Shown here: one piece after another, positions 7,170 to 15,967 of the stretch
Layout: each line of letters opens with the position of its first letter
Numbering within the stretch: position 1 is the first letter of the stretch
Source of the DNA: Mitsuokella multacida DSM 20544
GTDB lineage: Bacteria; Bacillota; Negativicutes; Selenomonadales; Selenomonadaceae
DNA length: 33,545 bases
Direction: 5' to 3'
NCBI RefSeq assembly: GCF_000155955.1
Contig: NZ_GG697142.2
Coordinates: 1 to 33,545, forward strand
Position numbers and translations under genes: made by a program
The notes under the pieces: model-generated
Seen by the model: only the letters and a program-made list of their open reading frames with translations
Told to the model about the DNA's origin: nothing
Databases searched by the model: none

Positions 7170-7937
7170 ATGTTTTTGGAAGAACGTCAGGACATCATCC
7201 TGAGCATGCTGGCACGCGACGGCAAGGTGCGCGTCCGTGACCTCAGTGAGAAATTCAAGGTCACGGAGGACTGCATCCGCAAGGACCTCGGTGCCCTCGA
7301 GAAGAAGGGCAAGCTCAAACGCACGTATGGCGGTGCTGTGCGCATCCGCGAGAACAGTCACATGGTCGAGGTCAGCAAGCACCGCAATACGGACGTCGAG
7401 GCTAAGCAGCGCATCGCGCAGGCTGCCGTCAAGCTCATCCACGAGAAGGACATGGTTTTCCTCGACATCTCGACGAGCAACCTCGCCATCGCAGAGCTCC
7501 TCGTCAAGATGGAGCTTGAGGTCACGGTCGTCACGAACATGATCGACATCCTCGTCGTGCTCGCGCGCAATCCGAAGATCCGCGTGGTCTTCGCCGGCGG
7601 CAAGATCAACAAGAGCCGCGATGGCTTCTGGGGCGGCATGACGCTCGACTTCATCTCGCGCCTCAAGCCGGACATCGCCTTTGTCGGCGCAGTCGGCGTC
7701 GACGTCAAGGAGAACAGTGTTTCGACGTACGACATCGATGACGGCATCAACAAGGCCGCCATCATCCGCCACAGCAAGAAAGCCTACGTCGTGGCCGAAG
7801 CGCGCAAGCTCAGCACGGATGGCAACTACAACTACACGACGCTTGACACGCTCTCGGGTCTCATCACGGATTCGGAGCCGGCAGCAGACATCCGCGCAGC
7901 AGCGGATTCGTACGGCGTGGAGATCATCCTGCCATGA
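7170..7937 (+). CDS. DeoR/GlpR family transcriptional regulator
   Basis: 255 aa from ATG 7170. The N-terminal winged helix (about residues 1-56) shows the DeoR signature: MFLEERQDIILSML, the V-R-V-R-D-L-S-E-K-F helix, and KKGKLKRTYGGAV. The C-terminal sensor domain (about 75-240) is of the sugar-phosphate isomerase-like type, with FLDISTSNLAIA, VVTNMIDI and VFAGGKIN. These regulators usually bind a phosphorylated sugar and repress a catabolic operon. Here no sugar genes are adjacent; instead the stop overlaps the start of an LtaS-like enzyme by 4 bp (ATGA), so the two are translationally coupled. I choose 7170 over ATG 7140 because AGGAG (7157-7161) sits 8 nt upstream and homologues begin here. 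The recognition helix reads VTEDCIRKDL where most members have VSxxTIRRDL. Confidence 0.9.
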   Translation: MFLEERQDIILSMLARDGKVRVRDLSEKFKVTEDCIRKDLGALEKKGKLKRTYGGAVRIRENSHMVEVSKHRNTDVEAKQRIAQAAVKLIHEKDMVFLDISTSNLAIAELLVKMELEVTVVTNMIDILVVLARNPKIRVVFAGGKINKSRDGFWGGMTLDFISRLKPDIAFVGAVGVDVKENSVSTYDIDDGINKAAIIRHSKKAYVVAEARKLSTDGNYNYTTLDTLSGLITDSEPAADIRAAADSYGVEIILP

Positions 7938-9982
7938 TGTTCTCTATGCCCGCATGGCTTTCGCGGTTTACTCGGTCTCGGTTTACTTGGAAAACTCTAT
8001 ATACGGGCATCCTGGAAGGACTGAAGGTATTTGCGTTTTACCTCGCAGTCCTTTCCGCTTTCCGGGGCTTTTTCATCGCGTGGCTGGCACCGTATATGGG
8101 AGCTTCGACGGGCGGCCACGACATCTTTCTCGCACTATGGCGCGGCTTCCGCCTCTCGATGCAGACGGCCGGCGCGCTGACGCTCGTGAGCTTCGTGCCG
8201 GGGCTGCTGCTCCATTATCTCTGGCCGCGCTGGGAGCGGCGCATTGTGCTCGCGCTCAACGGCGTGCTGCTCTCGGTGCTCTCGATCCTCTTTGTCGCGA
8301 GCTTCCCATTCTACCGGCAGTTCCATGCGAACTTCAACCAGATGCTCTTCACGGGCGCTAACGACGATATCTACGCGCTCCTCATCACGATGGTGCAGCA
8401 GTACTACCTGCCCGTGCGCCTCGCAGGAGCCCTGCTGCTCGCCTATGTTCTCTGGCGCGGCCTGCGCGCACTGCTTCGCTGCAGCTGGCTCGAGGACTGC
8501 ATGGATGGCGTGCGTCTGCCCGCGCCCGTGCGCTGGCTCGGCCGGCTGGCCTTCCTCTACCTGACGTACATCGCCGTGCTGCTCGGCATCTTCGGCGGCA
8601 GCCTGGGCTGGCAGACGGCCGTCAACTGGGAGAACGCCGGCGTCACGAAGGACGAGTTCCTCAATGAGGCCATCCTCGACAACGTGCAGGCCATCTACCG
8701 CGCCTACAACCTCAATGAGCGCATGCTGGCCTGCAACGGCCTCGACTTCACGACGGAAGACATCCGCAATCTGGCGGCGCGCCTTTCGGGCAAGCCCGCC
8801 GATACGGATGACCTCGACGTCTACCTGACGAAGGAAGCGCAGGGCCCGCAGGTCGAGAAGCCGAAGCAAGTCATCGTCATCCTGTCGGAGAGCTTCGCCA
8901 ACTGGCCATTGCTCGACAAGTACGAGGATATCCCCATCTCGCATGGCATGCGCAGCCTCATCGCGGAGGATGACACGGACTACTGTCCGACGTTCCTGCC
9001 AAATGGTGCGAGCACGGTCTCGGCTGTCACGGGCGTCGTGACGGACTTCGCCGATGCCAACCTCTACCTGACAACGATGCCGGAGTCCTTCGCCGCGCCG
9101 TACCCGACGGCCAGCGCCCCGCAGATGGAGAAGCTCGGCTACACGACGAACTTCTGGTATGCAGGGTCGTCCACCTGGGAGCGCATCGGCGCCTTCACGC
9201 AGGCACAGGGCTTTGACCACTTCTACAGCCGCGGCGACTTCGGCGATGTGCCGGGCAGCGTCTGGGGCTGTGAGGATGAGGTGCTCTACGAGAAGGTCCT
9301 CGACGGTCTCGACCCGGATACGCCGAGCTTCAACGTCCTGCTCAATGCCTCGAATCACTCGCCGTACGATCTCGACCTCGAGGCCAAGGGCTTTGATAAG
9401 GAGGCCGTGCGCGCCGCACTGCCGGAGGACCACCAGCAGGATGAGGAGCTCTTGAAGGAGCTCGGTCATTACTGGTACGCCGACCGCGAGCTCGCGAAGT
9501 TCGTCAAGGCCGTCAAAGAGAAGTGCCCCGAGAGCCTCATCGTCATCGTCGGCGATCATGGCGACCGCTACAACATCGACAAGACGCCGACGATGTACGA
9601 GCGCTACGGCATCCCCTTCATCATCACGGGCAAGGGCATCCACAAGGGGACCTTGCTGCCGGATGCGGCGGGCAGCCAGATTGACATCATGCCGACTATC
9701 TACGAGCTCATTGCCCCGAAGGGGTTCTCGTACATGGCGGTCGGTTCGAGCCTGACGCGGACGAACCGCCAGGGCGTCAACTACGGCTTCTTCATCACGC
9801 GCCATGCCATCGGCAAGGCGGACACGGTGCCGCTCGTGCCGGAGTCCGTCGACGGCGGTGAGCCGCCGACAATCGACCAGCAGGCGATGGAGGACTACAT
9901 CAACGGCGTCCGCAGCATCTCGTGGTGGCGCCCGAAGTACGGCGCAATCCTCGACGCGTCGAAGCTCGAGGGACGCCGCTGA
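7934..9982 (+). CDS. LtaS-like sulfatase-fold phosphoglycerol transferase (membrane protein)
   Basis: 682 aa. The N-terminal part (about residues 15-240) has about five hydrophobic helices. It is followed by an extracytoplasmic sulfatase/alkaline-phosphatase-fold domain (about 305-620). Expected catalytic features are present: E319 in ILSESFANW, S360-T361 in NGASTVSAV at the nucleophile position, N-H-S-P-Y for the LtaS histidine, and D541-H542 in GDHGDRY. LtaS enzymes polymerise glycerol phosphate onto lipoteichoic acid; related enzymes in diderms (OpgB-type) decorate periplasmic glycans. If the host is a diderm Negativicute, a glycan or LPS substrate is more likely than LTA; that is inference. 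Translation starts at 7934 or 7937 (ATGATG), overlapping the DeoR stop. Confidence 0.85.
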   Translation: MMFSMPAWLSRFTRSRFTWKTLYTGILEGLKVFAFYLAVLSAFRGFFIAWLAPYMGASTGGHDIFLALWRGFRLSMQTAGALTLVSFVPGLLLHYLWPRWERRIVLALNGVLLSVLSILFVASFPFYRQFHANFNQMLFTGANDDIYALLITMVQQYYLPVRLAGALLLAYVLWRGLRALLRCSWLEDCMDGVRLPAPVRWLGRLAFLYLTYIAVLLGIFGGSLGWQTAVNWENAGVTKDEFLNEAILDNVQAIYRAYNLNERMLACNGLDFTTEDIRNLAARLSGKPADTDDLDVYLTKEAQGPQVEKPKQVIVILSESFANWPLLDKYEDIPISHGMRSLIAEDDTDYCPTFLPNGASTVSAVTGVVTDFADANLYLTTMPESFAAPYPTASAPQMEKLGYTTNFWYAGSSTWERIGAFTQAQGFDHFYSRGDFGDVPGSVWGCEDEVLYEKVLDGLDPDTPSFNVLLNASNHSPYDLDLEAKGFDKEAVRAALPEDHQQDEELLKELGHYWYADRELAKFVKAVKEKCPESLIVIVGDHGDRYNIDKTPTMYERYGIPFIITGKGIHKGTLLPDAAGSQIDIMPTIYELIAPKGFSYMAVGSSLTRTNRQGVNYGFFITRHAIGKADTVPLVPESVDGGEPPTIDQQAMEDYINGVRSISWWRPKYGAILDASKLEGRR

Positions 9983-10913: not shown

Positions 10914-10960
10914 TGCTCAGGAGTTATACCTAGAAGGATTCGCGATAAGGAGGAATGTGC

Positions 10961-11878
10961 TTGGATAATGTTTTCGTCACGGTATTCTTGTTTTGCTTTT
11001 CGCTGCTGCCGATGGCTTATCTGCGCTACTATCCATTCCGCATCATCGCGACATTGCGCGAGCAGCGCATCCTGATCGCCGGCCATCTCATCATCTTTGT
11101 GGTCGAGTTCCTGCTCGTCACGGCACTCTTCGTGTCGGGCCATGCGCCGATGCAGGGCAATGCCTTCCAAAAGCTCTACTTCGTATGCTACTGGCCGTAT
11201 TTCCTGCTGCTGATGTTCACGATACGGCCCTTCTGGTTCCGCCATTTCTTCGTGCTCGGGATACAGGCCATCTATGCGGTATTCATCCACACGGCGACAG
11301 TCCTGCTCCTCAAACAGATCTGGATGCAGATGACTTATTTTGCCAGCCTGTACTTCATCTGCTATCTCACCCTGCTGTTGCTGAGCTTCCCCGGGATGAT
11401 ATGGCTGCTCGGCAGGCTCTTCACGCGGGAACAGCTCATGAAGGCACAGTGGACGGCCTCATCGTTCTGGAAGTATCTCGGTTTCGTGCCGCTGCTCCTT
11501 GCCTTTTACCAGGGGAGCATGGGCTATGTGGATCTGCTCCAGCAGGTCCAGGATCTGTCGGGCGTCCATCTCTACATGCTGGTGAGCCGAGGCATCCTCG
11601 TCATCATCGGAGGCATCCTCGTCATCTCCGTGCGCAGCGGCTTTCGCCAGGTACAATACATGTTCCACGCGAAAGAGCGCAGCATGAAGATGCAGGAGCA
11701 TCTTCGTGAGATCCACGACTATGCCAATACGTTGCAGGAGGAGCAGCAGAAACTCGCCATCCTTCGCCACGACAGCCGCCATCAGCTGCGCGTGCTGGCC
11801 GAGCTCATCGAGAGCGGCCATTACGATGAGGCGGAGCGGCATCTGCGCGCCCTGAGAAAGGAGGTGGAGCGCCGTTGA
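10961..11878 (+). CDS. 7-TM sensor protein with HPK10-like dimerisation/phospho-acceptor helix, no ATPase domain
   Basis: 305 aa from TTG 10961. About seven hydrophobic helices (residues 1-230) are followed by a coiled-coil linker. A helix then carries the canonical HPK10 acceptor motif: LRHDSRHQL, with H270 (codon 11768-11770) followed by D271 and the typical GHYDEAERHLRAL continuation. The protein stops there and has no HATPase_c domain. The next gene encodes a paralogue: YYPFRIIATLREQR here aligns with ILPFRRFLTAAQKK there, and EFLLVTALF with EAHLVTVIV. The stop overlaps the next start by 4 nt (TTGA). The TTG start is preferred because AAGGAGG (10947-10953) ends 7 nt upstream, whereas ATG 10955 is too close. 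It may be a partner or phospho-acceptor subunit of a split kinase, or a sensor that modulates the next protein. Confidence 0.78.
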   Translation: MDNVFVTVFLFCFSLLPMAYLRYYPFRIIATLREQRILIAGHLIIFVVEFLLVTALFVSGHAPMQGNAFQKLYFVCYWPYFLLLMFTIRPFWFRHFFVLGIQAIYAVFIHTATVLLLKQIWMQMTYFASLYFICYLTLLLLSFPGMIWLLGRLFTREQLMKAQWTASSFWKYLGFVPLLLAFYQGSMGYVDLLQQVQDLSGVHLYMLVSRGILVIIGGILVISVRSGFRQVQYMFHAKERSMKMQEHLREIHDYANTLQEEQQKLAILRHDSRHQLRVLAELIESGHYDEAERHLRALRKEVERR

Positions 11879-13230
11879 GCTTCGATATGACGACGTTTGG
11901 CGTCACCTGGATCTACGTCTTGATCCTGCAGCCCTTTGCGCTCCTGCAGATCCTGCCGTTCCGCCGCTTCCTGACAGCAGCGCAGAAGAAGCGCCTCGTC
12001 ATCTGCTGGTGCCTGCTCATCGTGCTGGAGGCACATCTCGTCACGGTGATCGTCTCTATGGCGATCTTCCCATCGCATCAGATTGCCTACTGGCTGCTCG
12101 GCTACCTCATCTGGGTGCCACAGTTCCTGCTGGCCTTCAGCTTCACGCGCCGCTTCTGGGCAGGCCACATCTTCATCGCGGCCTTCCGCATCCTGTTCTC
12201 GAGCATCATCTACACGTTTACGCGCGCAATCCTGCTGATGGCCTTCCCCGACAAGCTGTTGCCGAGCCTCTACTTTGAGCAGATCTTGCTCTACGGCATC
12301 TTGTCGCTGCTGATCTTTCCCATCCTGCTGCGCTTCTTCACGGATACGTTCCGCCACTTCGAGATGGCCTCGACGCGCCGCTACTGGCGCATCATCACGC
12401 TGCTCCCTGTGCTGCTCGCCATCGAGTCGCTCTACCTAAGCCTGCTCAACTCGCAGGAGCAGGTCTTTGCCTTGCTGCTGCCGCGCTTCATGCTGCTCAT
12501 CGTCATCATCCTGCTCATGGCCAGCATCCGCAGCGGCCAGAGTGAGGTCTATCGGGAGTTGCAGGTCTTCGAAAAAGAACACGAGCTGCAGAGGCAGCTC
12601 GTGTCAACGGCGCGTTATGTGAAGATGTCAGAGGAGTCGAGGCATCGCATGGCCTCAATCTACGAGAAGCGGCGGCACCATATTGACCATCTGCTCGCAC
12701 TCGTGAGCCAGAGGGACCGTGAGGGAGCGCTGGCCTGTATCGAGGCACTCGGCGCGCAGTTCAGCCGCACGAAGCTGCCGCAGTACTGCAAGAACACCCT
12801 GATCAACGCGGCGCTAACGGTCTACTTCGCGCGGGCCAAGGAGCTCGCCATTCCGGTGACAGCTGCCATTGACCTGCCAGAAGAGCTCTCTTTCAGCGGC
12901 GACCTCTCCATCGTGCTCTCGAATCTCGTGGAGAATGCCCTGCTTGCGAGCCAGAAACAACCGCCTGCTGCACGCCATATCGCCGTCATGACGATGTGCC
13001 AAGGTGATGTCATCAACGTGCTCGTCAAGAATCGCTTTGATGCGCCTGTCGAGTTCGATGAGGAGGGGCTGCCCGTGACGCATGTCAAGGGGCATGGCAT
13101 CGGCATGAAGTCCTTGTCCCGCTTTTGCGATAAGTACAAGGCGAGTGTCTTCTGCCAGCAGAAAGACGGCTGGTTCATGACCTATCTCCAGGTGCCGCTG
13201 CTCGCTGAGGCGTCAGATCGTAGTCGATGA
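11875..13230 (+). CDS. 7-TM sensor histidine kinase, GHKL ATPase domain (HPK10/AgrC-like)
   Basis: 451 aa from TTG 11875, placed 8 nt after AAGGAGGTG. About seven N-terminal helices (residues 1-230) form the sensor. The acceptor-helix region reads EKRRHHIDHLL with H268-H269, so the usual Asp after the acceptor His is replaced by His. The HATPase_c domain (about 315-445) has N354 in the N-box SNLVENALLAS and the G-box GHGIG at 406-410. HPK10 kinases sense peptides or cell-envelope signals and phosphorylate LytTR regulators; a LytTR regulator is encoded convergently just downstream. The last 18 bp overlap the 3' end of that gene on the other strand. Confidence 0.87.
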   Translation: MSFDMTTFGVTWIYVLILQPFALLQILPFRRFLTAAQKKRLVICWCLLIVLEAHLVTVIVSMAIFPSHQIAYWLLGYLIWVPQFLLAFSFTRRFWAGHIFIAAFRILFSSIIYTFTRAILLMAFPDKLLPSLYFEQILLYGILSLLIFPILLRFFTDTFRHFEMASTRRYWRIITLLPVLLAIESLYLSLLNSQEQVFALLLPRFMLLIVIILLMASIRSGQSEVYRELQVFEKEHELQRQLVSTARYVKMSEESRHRMASIYEKRRHHIDHLLALVSQRDREGALACIEALGAQFSRTKLPQYCKNTLINAALTVYFARAKELAIPVTAAIDLPEELSFSGDLSIVLSNLVENALLASQKQPPAARHIAVMTMCQGDVINVLVKNRFDAPVEFDEEGLPVTHVKGHGIGMKSLSRFCDKYKASVFCQQKDGWFMTYLQVPLLAEASDRSR

Positions 13231-13947
13231 GAACATGAATCGGAAATATATTTCCTGGAACATCCTGTACTTGCGCTTGCCGAGCGGGAGCTTTTGCCCT
13301 GCAATCTCCACGTAATCCGCCTTGATGATGTGGACGGCTGCCAGGTTGACGAGATAGCCTTTGTTCGGTGAGGCGAACTGTCCCGACGCAATCTTGTCGA
13401 GCTCATCCTTTATCTCCTGGCCGGACTTGCGTGTCTCGAGTACGGTACCGTCCGCCAGATGGACCTGCAGGATGTGGCCGTGGCTCTCGAAGTAGAGGAT
13501 CTGCGAGATTTCCTCGATACAGAGTCCACCGCCTACAAGGCGCAGCATGATCTTGGCGCTGCTGCGCTGGCGGATGAAGGCGATGGCCCGGTCCATCGCC
13601 TGGTTGAACTGGCTCTGCGTGAACGGCTTCAGCAGGTAGTCCGTGGCCTTGACCGCAAAGGCATCCATGGCGAATTCATCGCTCGTCGTCAGGAAGATGA
13701 TCTCCGTGCTGCTGCTGAACTTGCGCAGTTCTTGTGCCACCTCCGTGCCAAGGATGCCCGGCATGCAGACGTCGAGCAGGACGATATCGAAGATAGCACC
13801 CTGATTGATTGTGTCGACGAAGGAAAAGGCGTTGTCAAAGGTCTCGTATGATACAGTATCCTGTTTATCTTGGAAATATCGTTCAGATGACTGCCGGATG
13901 GAGCGGATCTGGTCGGGCTGGTCATCACAGATTGCGATATGAAGCAT
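13213..13947 (-). CDS. LytTR family response regulator
   Basis: 244 aa. Receiver domain (residues 1-120): acidic pocket D8-D9, phospho-acceptor D59 in LLDVCMPG, T87 and K107 in LLKPF. C-terminal LytTR DNA-binding domain (about 140-238), with YFESHGHILQVHL and the NKGYLVNLAAVHIIKAD segment where the family recognises DNA. It should be the partner of the adjacent HPK10-type kinase pair. Unusually it lies on the opposite strand, tail to tail with an 18-bp overlap, so kinase and regulator cannot share one mRNA. The ATG at 13947 (minus) has AAAGGATGTG just upstream. Direct targets are unknown; the neighbouring envelope transferases are candidates. Confidence 0.92.
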   Translation of the reverse strand: MLHIAICDDQPDQIRSIRQSSERYFQDKQDTVSYETFDNAFSFVDTINQGAIFDIVLLDVCMPGILGTEVAQELRKFSSSTEIIFLTTSDEFAMDAFAVKATDYLLKPFTQSQFNQAMDRAIAFIRQRSSAKIMLRLVGGGLCIEEISQILYFESHGHILQVHLADGTVLETRKSGQEIKDELDKIASGQFASPNKGYLVNLAAVHIIKADYVEIAGQKLPLGKRKYRMFQEIYFRFMFSSTTI

Positions 13948-14087: not shown

Positions 14088-14134
14088 ATGAACAAACAGG
14101 CCCTGTCGCATTGCGGCAGGGCCTGTTTGTTCAT
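14088..14134. terminator. Long perfect hairpin, probable terminator of the EptA-like gene
   Basis: An 18-bp perfect inverted repeat (14088-14105 with 14117-14134) can be extended to a 22-bp stem with an ATT loop. The GC core GGCCCTG/CAGGGCC is flanked by A-rich and T-rich arms (AACAAACA/TGTTTGTT). It can therefore work as a terminator for the minus-strand gene ending at 14138 and, less ideally, in the plus direction. Confidence 0.8.
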
Positions 14135-14137
14135 TTA

Positions 14138-15967
14138 TCACTGTTCTGGTGTGCCGTCCGGGTCGGCGGAGAGCTTGTACTGGCCGAGCATGGTCGTCAG
14201 GTTGTCGCGGTTGAAGCGGTAGGCTGTGCTCGTGAAGTCCTGTCCCGGGTCGTAGTGCTCGGACGGGGCGTTGAGCAGGCCGCAGACCGTGTCGTAGAGC
14301 ATGTCGTTCGTGAAGTAGCGGCTCTCATGGCTCCTGAGCGTGGCCGTGCGGCCCGGCAGGGCGGCCTGGTATGACGGCGAGAGGTAGATCCACATCGGGA
14401 TGCGGACCATGTCGAAGCTGAAGACGTCCGGATTGTGGGAGATCGTCAGGTTCTCGCCGTGGTCGGAGAAGTAGACCATCGCCTGCAGGTTGAGGTTCTT
14501 CTTGGCGTAGTCGAAGACCTGCGAGAGGATGTAGTCGGTGTAGAGGATGCTGTTGGCATACGAGGCTTCCGACGTCATCGTCGAACTGCCCTCTTCGCCC
14601 TGGAATTTGTTGAAGCCCTCTGGGTAGCGGTTGTTGTAGTAGATGTGGCTGCCCATGATGTGCAGGACGATGAAGTTGTTCTTGTTGGGATCGACCTGCA
14701 TCAGGTATGGCAGCAGGGTCTCATCGTACTTGTCGGAGAAGTTGTAGGAGTCGTCGGTCCATTCCGCGTGGTCGGCCGTCTTGGCGACGAGCGTGATGGC
14801 GCTGTCGTACTGGCCGTAGCGGCCCTGATTGCTGAACCAGTAGGTGTCGTAGCCCGACTTCTTGGCGACGTCGAGGATGGAGGCGGAGTTGAAGAACTCC
14901 TTGCCGTTGTACTGGCTCTGCTCCGTCAGGGCGCGCTGCAGGACGGGGACGGTCTGCGACCAGGAGGAGTAGGCATTCTGGAAGAACAGGAAGTCGGGAC
15001 TATTTTCCTGCTGGCTCTGCCACGGCGTGTCGTCGTAGGCATAGTTCTTGGTGAAGGCCTTCATGTAGTTGCGTGAGGCCGACTCGCCGATGACGACGAT
15101 GACCGTGCCCGGGGCCTTGGCCGCGAGCGTCTGCGTGCCCTCGACGGAGATGCTCGCGAAGCGCTCCTCGTAGTTGAGGCTGTAGGTCTGCGTCTGCTTG
15201 ACGTAGGTGTCGACATCGTTCCAGAGGTCGGCAATCGAGGTCTGCGGCACGTACCAGAAGAGCGAGATGAGCGAGCCGATGACGAGCAGTGCGAGCGCGC
15301 CCATGCGGCCCGCCGTCGAGTCCTCCTGTTCGAGTCGGCGTGCAAACGTCATGTGGCCGCGCCAGCAGGCGTAGAGGAAGAGGCCGAGTCCCGCGATGAT
15401 GATGCAGGCGGGGATGACGCCGACGTTCGACTCGATGAAGTCGATGCTCTCGCGCCAGTTCGTCAGGTAGAGCGCCATCAGCGAGGCCGGCGAGAGGCAG
15501 TGCCAGACGATGAAGTAGTAGGCGTACTGGATGAAGGGGATGACGATGCCGAAGAGGTTCAGCAGCGCCATCAGGGCTGCGATGATCTTCTCGTGGCCGA
15601 GCCGGAACAGCGCGCCCTCAAGCGCGGTGAGCAGCAGGAAGAGCGAGGTGCCGACGAGGAAGTCGAAGCAGATCTTCGACATGTACCAGTCTTGATGATA
15701 CGTCCAGGTGTAGAGCAGCGGGAAAGCGCTGCACCAGGCGAGTCCTGTGAAGAGATTCGGCAGGGTCGCCCATGAGAAGAGGGGGACGTGCGTGCCGTAC
15801 TGCACGAGCACGAGCGCGAGCATGACGGGCAGGAAGACGGGGATGAAGTACTCCGCGCCCATGTCCTGCCCGATGTCGATGTAGAACGCGATCAGACAGA
15901 TGTAGTAGATACCGGCTGCCGTCAGCCAGCGGATGAGACGGTCTTGTCTCTCGGTAGAAAGTTGCAT
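14138..15967 (-). CDS. EptA/phosphoethanolamine-transferase-like sulfatase-fold membrane enzyme
   Basis: 609 aa. About six to seven hydrophobic helices (residues 12-240) precede a periplasmic sulfatase-fold domain (about 285-570). Catalytic features match the lipid A/glycan phosphoethanolamine transferases (EptA/EptC/OpgE type): E295 in VIGESASRN, T339 in SSWSQTVPVL at the nucleophile position, HIMGSH, and D502-H503 in FSDHGEN. Such enzymes add phosphoethanolamine to LPS or envelope glycans and change surface charge. The exact acceptor is not predictable. It is transcribed alone from its own promoter (16040-16068) with a small leader hairpin (15986-15992 with 16001-16007). GAGGT sits 7 nt before the ATG. 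It is only distantly similar to the LtaS-like gene at 7934. Confidence 0.85.
   Translation of the reverse strand: MQLSTERQDRLIRWLTAAGIYYICLIAFYIDIGQDMGAEYFIPVFLPVMLALVLVQYGTHVPLFSWATLPNLFTGLAWCSAFPLLYTWTYHQDWYMSKICFDFLVGTSLFLLLTALEGALFRLGHEKIIAALMALLNLFGIVIPFIQYAYYFIVWHCLSPASLMALYLTNWRESIDFIESNVGVIPACIIIAGLGLFLYACWRGHMTFARRLEQEDSTAGRMGALALLVIGSLISLFWYVPQTSIADLWNDVDTYVKQTQTYSLNYEERFASISVEGTQTLAAKAPGTVIVVIGESASRNYMKAFTKNYAYDDTPWQSQQENSPDFLFFQNAYSSWSQTVPVLQRALTEQSQYNGKEFFNSASILDVAKKSGYDTYWFSNQGRYGQYDSAITLVAKTADHAEWTDDSYNFSDKYDETLLPYLMQVDPNKNNFIVLHIMGSHIYYNNRYPEGFNKFQGEEGSSTMTSEASYANSILYTDYILSQVFDYAKKNLNLQAMVYFSDHGENLTISHNPDVFSFDMVRIPMWIYLSPSYQAALPGRTATLRSHESRYFTNDMLYDTVCGLLNAPSEHYDPGQDFTSTAYRFNRDNLTTMLGQYKLSADPDGTPEQ

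Follow-up and report, generated by a model that had tools for sequence, protein, structure and literature searches.

One locus of Mitsuokella multacida DSM 20544 raises the question whether two adjacent genes, each of which appears to encode half of a histidine kinase, make up a single signalling enzyme. We analysed a stretch of 33,545 nucleotides (contig NZ_GG697142.2, positions 1 to 33,545; the window), in which gene A (10961-11878, forward strand) and gene B (11875-13230, forward strand) encode paralogous membrane sensors beside a gene for a LytTR response regulator. Our reading, to which we give a probability of about 0.83, is that A and B form an obligate hetero-oligomer that works as a split kinase of the AgrC-like (HPK10) type, with B phosphorylating A.

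Acceptor and catalytic halves on adjacent genes

The product of gene A, 305 residues long, seems to be a seven-helix membrane sensor with DHp helices and represents the acceptor-only half. In an AlphaFold2 model built on an alignment of 22 short homologues (mean predicted local distance difference test score, pLDDT, 82.6) seven helices fit a membrane domain, and a membrane placement of these helices is consistent with the model. The last of them continues as a long helix (residues 204-284) bearing H270, after which a short helix (288-304) follows and the protein ends. The codon of H270 lies at 11768-11770 on the forward strand, and the motif around it, R269-H270-D271-x-R273-H274, is invariant as RHDxRH in 22 of the 22 aligned short proteins. 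The chain stops 35 residues past H270 without an ATPase domain, and the Pfam scan of A gave no match above the cut-off and no ATPase domain. The first-pass annotation had described A as an R-H270-D271 acceptor lacking an ATPase, and this description holds. Two family assignments for A were tried and rejected. Membership of the Spo0B-type phosphotransferases fails on a SPOB_a match (residues 265-303) that stays below the Pfam cut-off (17.3 bits against 28.1); a weak SPOB_a match appears in 6 of the 22 short homologues, and scans of all 22 gave no informative Pfam or NCBIfam family match (best SPOB_a, E 0.0022). Membership of the CheA family fails on the P1/P3/P4/P5 architecture, which is absent from the Pfam results of A and B. 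A Foldseek comparison of the whole of A with the PDB found no fold relative (best E 1.7).

The product of gene B (451 residues) is the kinase-only half. Its model (mean pLDDT 84.1) resembles that of A in its helices and adds a catalytic domain after them. The full GHKL ATPase claimed for it earlier is confirmed: Pfam places HATPase_c_5 at residues 343-440, beside a chance-level OrfB_IS605 match, and B keeps both N354 of the N box and G406-G410 of the G box. According to Pfam, boxes and model, the ATP-binding catalytic domain covers residues ~308-441 (12796-13197, forward strand) with N354 and G406/G408/G410. Foldseek matches of B are kinase modules, and the closest solved structure, by sequence profile as well as by fold, is the AgrC kinase module (best Foldseek match 6e52). 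That A and B are paralogues whose genes overlap by 4 nt is likewise borne out, with a shared TTGA (11875-11878, forward strand) in which the stop of A meets the TTG start of B, and with 25% identity over 305 aligned positions (E 2e-18) in a single BLASTP comparison. The overlap is consistent with translational coupling.

At the acceptor position B differs from what had been supposed. BLASTP and MAFFT concur in aligning E264 of B (codon 12664-12666, forward strand) with H270 of A, and in an ungapped register scored with BLOSUM62 the pairing of E264 with H270 reaches +36, that of H268 with H270 -9. When a profile of 30 kinase-type proteins was compared with AgrC, the histidine of AgrC's RHD fell on a consensus Glu. 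The first-pass annotation had read the acceptor motif of B as R-H-H in place of R-H-D. The loss of the acceptor stands, the altered motif does not: R-H-H lies four residues off the register and is not conserved, because the two sister species carry YEKRRN and YEKQRQ there, while Acidaminococcus relatives have YQEKRE, YREKRD or YREKQD. Register and orthologues rule out R-H-H as acceptor. On the aligned sequences, the acceptor of B is lost outright and not changed into another motif.

HPK10 sensors usually have 5-8 transmembrane segments, as described in PMC4873836, and the seven helices in the model of A and the similar layout of B agree with this. The RHD motif and the GHKL ATPase are not found in one protein: A has the motif only and B the ATPase only. 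The pair together has both, neither protein alone is a complete HPK10 kinase, and acceptor and catalytic domains sit on separate polypeptides as in a split kinase. The adjacent gene (13213-13947, reverse strand) encodes a response regulator with Response_reg and LytTR domains, a candidate for the LytTR-type partner that goes with HPK10 kinases, in which D59 would from its motif be the phosphorylatable residue.

Both genes are under purifying selection. Across the three species of the genus, the ratio of nonsynonymous to synonymous substitution rates (dN/dS) is 0.22-0.29 for A and 0.21-0.26 for B; within B it is 0.13-0.17 for the ATPase domain, and 0.14 and 0.27 for the DHp.

Recurrence of complementary pairs in the Negativicutes

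Homologues were searched for in 60 relatives, then in 189 genomes of the family and then in 380 of the class, and the stretches around most of the listed matches were fetched; those of G325, G326, G332, G333, G335, G337 and G343, and the weak matches of G054, G096, G203-G205 and G209, were not. The pair table holds 126 fetched stretches and the window, with a sensor gene in 125 of these 127. Each sensor gene was scored for the acceptor histidine and for two ATPase motifs; the ATPase counted as intact when the N box had its Asn and the G box read [HQR]-G-x-G.

Among the matches listed we found 54 tandem pairs, from 46 genomes, 11 genus codes and two family codes. Complementarity is strict in 43 of them, with the histidine but no working ATPase in one gene and an intact ATPase but no histidine in the other. 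Four further pairs miss the strict rule only through a contig end (L081, L132), a frameshift (L176, where the ATPase-coding DNA is preserved in another frame) or one G-box change (L139). Single-sensor loci keep both histidine and ATPase in 65 of 70 cases. The other five are L115 and L199, where a contig end truncates the partner or the kinase, L180, in which the kinase of a pair is frameshifted, L090, a broken full kinase, and L197, which is taken up with the exceptions below. Within pairs, all 43 ATPase-less open reading frames (ORFs) that bear the histidine stand beside a histidine-less partner, and the ATPase of that partner is strictly intact in 39. The ATPase-less ORFs with a histidine, 46 in number and the broken kinase L090 among them, end 33-50 residues past the histidine, at the boundary between DHp and ATPase. 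Three lone ATPase-less genes were found (L090, L115, L180); a frameshift or stop, or else the end of a contig, accounts for each.

The first-pass annotation had asked whether homologues of the two genes always recur together in one order and with one residue pattern. Adjacent, mostly overlapping pairs with complementary residues do recur, but their order varies: some have the acceptor gene first, others the kinase gene. Homologues of the first gene standing alone or with a full ATPase had been named as evidence against a split. They exist, but as the lone intact kinases counted above, and they make no argument against it.

The locus searches used an acceptor-type query, which might bias the sample. 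A control search of the 189 family genomes with a kinase-type alignment found at least four places outside the 126 stretches (G100:C178, G154:C60, G165:C7, G197:C7). The loci from it, L240-L243, lie outside the pair table: L243 (G165) is a lone intact kinase, L240 (G197) a histidine-less kinase with a broken sensor frame next to a mini-acceptor of the kind described below, and L241 and L242 are contig-end pieces.

The window-type pair is present in all three genomes of the genus. Gene A is found in six of nine genomes of the Acidaminococcus group, with B frameshifted in two of the six (G218, G220), and A proteins of the two groups share 44-53% identity. This distribution rules out that the truncation of A is an artefact of one assembly.

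For a tree of 111 representatives, sensor and DHp columns were used and the acceptor columns removed. It leaves out the 12 mini-acceptors, ORFs shorter than 280 residues or open at a contig start (including L029, L199 and the upstream gene of L120), near-copies, and L025, L090 and L198. In Selenomonadaceae, if the window type and L129 are set aside, the upstream members of pairs form one clade (100/99), lone kinases included, and the downstream members a separate clade (100/96). Taken from the gene tree, this two-clade pattern is what one old tandem duplication with constant gene order would be expected to leave. The kinase is upstream and the acceptor downstream in Anaerovibrio-like and several other loci; the acceptor is upstream and the kinase downstream in 12 of the 18 pairs of genus code g12 and in L077 and L104. 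Opposite roles are thus found within the same upstream and downstream clades, and therefore one duplicate pair seems to have been resolved in opposite ways. The window pair and its Acidaminococcus relatives form a separate supported clade (100/99), again with lone kinases in it. A single origin of all ATPase-less proteins is rejected (approximately unbiased test, p-AU 5.6e-69, 23 rows against 88), the grouping being defined by the ATPase-less trait itself after an earlier tree had been seen. The idea of complementary loss after duplication, put forward in the first-pass annotation, gains support from a pattern that appears in several lineages, with either copy in either role.

The acceptor partner itself occurs in different grades: full-length with a decayed ATPase, cut at the boundary of DHp and ATPase, or reduced to a mini-protein. 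A decayed but still present ATPase is seen in the histidine-bearing partner of L077, L089, L104 and L130. The mini-acceptors, found in 12 loci, have about 100 residues with one membrane helix, a coil and a DHp (RHDLRHHY). Such genes sit 3' of a histidine-less kinase gene and mostly overlap its end (L138-L141, L188, L190-L196, L240); for L138 and L194 the ORF was called at 165-167 residues, and we infer an internal start. Ten of the 12 were scanned, with no Pfam match over the cut-off and no NCBIfam match. Megasphaera sp. NM10 (L203, 3914-6689) has a window-type intermediate. Its A homologue lies in an open frame of 467 codons in which RHDSRH is present and an ATPase region can still be recognised, though the usual N and G boxes are missing from it; its B homologue has an intact ATPase, no acceptor histidine and one in-frame TGA.

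We think it probable that obligately heteromeric membrane receptor kinases arose repeatedly in the Negativicutes from AgrC-like tandem duplicates, one copy losing the histidine and the other the ATPase, in either role, with an acceptor that can shrink to a mini-protein of one helix and a DHp. Trans phosphorylation and a dual-protein AND logic would then be the rule in these systems.

Proposed mechanism and competing explanations

We suggest that A and B assemble into a hetero-oligomer, contacting each other through membrane helices, coiled coil and DHp helices. With ATP bound, the ATPase domain of B would phosphorylate H270 of A; at the corresponding position B itself has a Glu and would therefore escape self-phosphorylation there. 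A would then hand the phosphate to the neighbouring LytTR regulator, the same route that the first-pass annotation had proposed. Neither protein would be a kinase alone, so that output would need both. This scheme builds on the observed residue and domain pattern, its recurrence, the reversal of roles and the purifying selection on both genes; the formation of the complex, the direction of phosphotransfer and the partnership with the regulator are what it would add. As for the last of these, a genome-wide search at E <=0.001 gave a single LytTR frame, the neighbour of the pair, and a LytTR-type regulator gene lies within 2.5 kb of 40 of the 54 pairs (39 of them on the opposite strand) and of 55 of the 70 one-gene loci.

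It could be argued that A, which has no ATPase and needs some partner, receives its phosphate from a different histidine kinase in the cell, with B as no more than a modulator of A. Another HATPase_c_5 frame does exist in the genome, on another contig, in a count that covered this HATPase family only. Yet the ATPase of B is under purifying selection, paired ATPase-less ORFs stand beside a histidine-less paralogue in 43 of 43 cases with its ATPase intact in 39, and the role swaps within the same upstream and downstream clades are hard to explain unless B is the kinase of A. We therefore regard this explanation as unlikely. Somewhat less likely still is that A serves mainly as a phosphatase or phosphate sink for a LytTR regulator charged by acetyl phosphate or by another kinase. 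A parallel for it is CheA3, the acceptor in the CheA3/CheA4 pair, which doubles as a phosphatase (PMC3591291), but a role of this kind leaves unexplained why the partner has an intact ATPase and a lost acceptor in several lineages.

Decay of the duplicate, in which A would be a pseudogene left by truncation and B a kinase in the course of being lost, would agree with the loss of the histidine from both copies in L035 and L121 and with the interruption of some kinase genes. We consider it highly improbable in view of dN/dS values of 0.21-0.29 in both genes, truncation at the same domain boundary in several lineages, the RHDxRH found in every aligned short protein, and the conservation of A between the genus and Acidaminococcus. 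We give just as little credit to the idea that B is a complete kinase using H268 or H269 as an alternative acceptor. B in the window does have a histidine doublet roughly one turn of the helix away from where the acceptor would lie, but the orthologues have YEKRRN, YEKQRQ, YQEKRE, YREKRD or YREKQD, and the register of H268 scores far below that of E264.

Several observations weigh against the reading of A and B, and of such pairs in general, as split kinases. In 7 of the 54 pairs complementarity does not apply. Both partners lack the histidine in L035 and L121; in the contig-cut L120 one partner lacks both functions and the other keeps SHELYE and an ATPase; by our scoring rule the ATPase has decayed in both copies of L083; and L028, L099 and L129 retain the histidine in both copies. 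The one-gene locus L197 lacks both functions and stands beside a cut partner, which makes it akin to L035 and L120. A frameshift or stop interrupts the kinase gene in L176 and L180 of Acidaminococcus and in Megasphaera NM10, either as an error or as a real loss. The DHp of A has a dN/dS of 0.11 in one comparison and of 0.30 in another, and in 14 of the 54 pairs no regulator gene lies within 2.5 kb on the fetched piece.

Two of these loci have features of their own. The genes of L129 (G061, 40-2894) are sisters in the tree (100/100) and look like a young tandem pair; both keep the histidine, but in one copy the G box has departed from its usual form (YPGMGT), and in the other HHDMHH replaces RHDMRH. 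Close to L035, and likewise to its relative L029, is a large gene that matches ATPase as well as receiver profiles and may have assumed the lost function.

Known split kinases and the surroundings of the locus

AgrC forms a homodimer, and the Rv0600c/Rv0601c system of M. tuberculosis provides a further precedent for a split kinase. Like AgrC-AgrA, the locus combines a polytopic membrane sensor, an RHD motif, a GHKL ATPase and a LytTR regulator (PMC10482373). AgrC unites in a single protein the two functions that A and B divide between them, and its phosphorylation is reported to occur in trans (PMC10482373). Split histidine kinases are described as rare in PMC3591291, where the biochemically characterised one that is named is the chemotaxis pair CheA3/CheA4 of Rhodobacter sphaeroides. 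Neither of these autophosphorylates alone; CheA4 phosphorylates CheA3, from which the phosphate passes to CheY6 (PMC3591291). As in this pair, kinase and phosphorylatable domains lie on separate proteins in A and B. CheA3 and CheA4 are of the CheA type, belong to a cytoplasmic cluster and use a P1 acceptor; A, B and their relatives are usually complete AgrC-like membrane sensors, encoded by adjacent paralogues, with the acceptor on the DHp helices themselves. Hik36/Hik43 of Synechocystis, a CheA homologue, is also one kinase split over two genes with one regulator (PMC7656254), but it is of the CheA/PilL type, its genes are distant, and the available part of that source describes no reciprocal loss in tandem duplicates.

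Acceptor proteins without an ATPase are known as such. According to PMC3591291, 1556 of 42417 HisKA proteins lack HATPase, and 711 of these, with a phosphatase motif, are candidates for split bifunctional kinases; archaeal acceptor-only proteins have been called a 'possible incomplete histidine kinase' (PMC5847659). They resemble A in having the acceptor without the ATPase and differ from it in that no kinase partner is named in the available text of either source. The closest artificial counterpart is the laboratory mixture of a histidine mutant with an ATP-binding mutant, as in the trans-complementation assay of MtrB H305Q with MtrB N419D, which indicated that MtrB acts in cis (PMC5956149). 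The design is the same, but the arrangement of A and B is natural.

The principle of a split is thus already known from CheA-like cases. Tandem membrane sensors with reciprocal loss were not described in the titles or abstract openings among the matches listed in our literature search, which mostly did not extend to subscription journals. Here it is ordinary membrane sensors that are split: in several lineages tandem duplicates have lost complementary functions, with either copy as the kinase, and this would be a clean case of the complementary degeneration that keeps a duplicate pair alive. The split predicts obligate trans-phosphorylation between different receptors and, if true, would be a natural counterpart of the trans-complementation assay with histidine and ATPase mutants. 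The kinase-only, acceptor-only and mini-acceptor proteins could serve as natural reagents for studying how DHp heterodimers assemble and the way in which two inputs are integrated. Acceptor genes of this sort easily escape notice, as family databases give little or no match.

The remaining features of the locus are minor. Gene A starts with a TTG at 10961, preceded by a Shine-Dalgarno-like AAGGAGG (10947-10953, forward strand), and an ATG at 10955 is an alternative start. A promoter and terminator scan found sites no commoner than in shuffled sequences. A Pfam scan of eight neighbouring genes found no AgrB-like gene, small peptide genes not being part of the search; among the flanking genes it identified a radical SAM protein and an anaerobic ribonucleotide reductase. 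The intergenic region that separates the LytTR gene from the sulfatase gene beyond it contains a near-perfect inverted repeat (14088-14134) with 23-nt arms, 96% complementary, and a 1-nt spacer; it is not among the output of the terminator scan. Proteins with a Pfam Sulfatase domain are encoded on both sides of the locus (7934-9982, forward strand; 14138-15967, reverse strand), and both are probably membrane-anchored and phosphoglycerol or phosphoethanolamine transferase-like. Gene B and the LytTR gene meet tail-to-tail with an overlap of 18 nt (13213-13230), so the 3' ends of their transcripts should be complementary.

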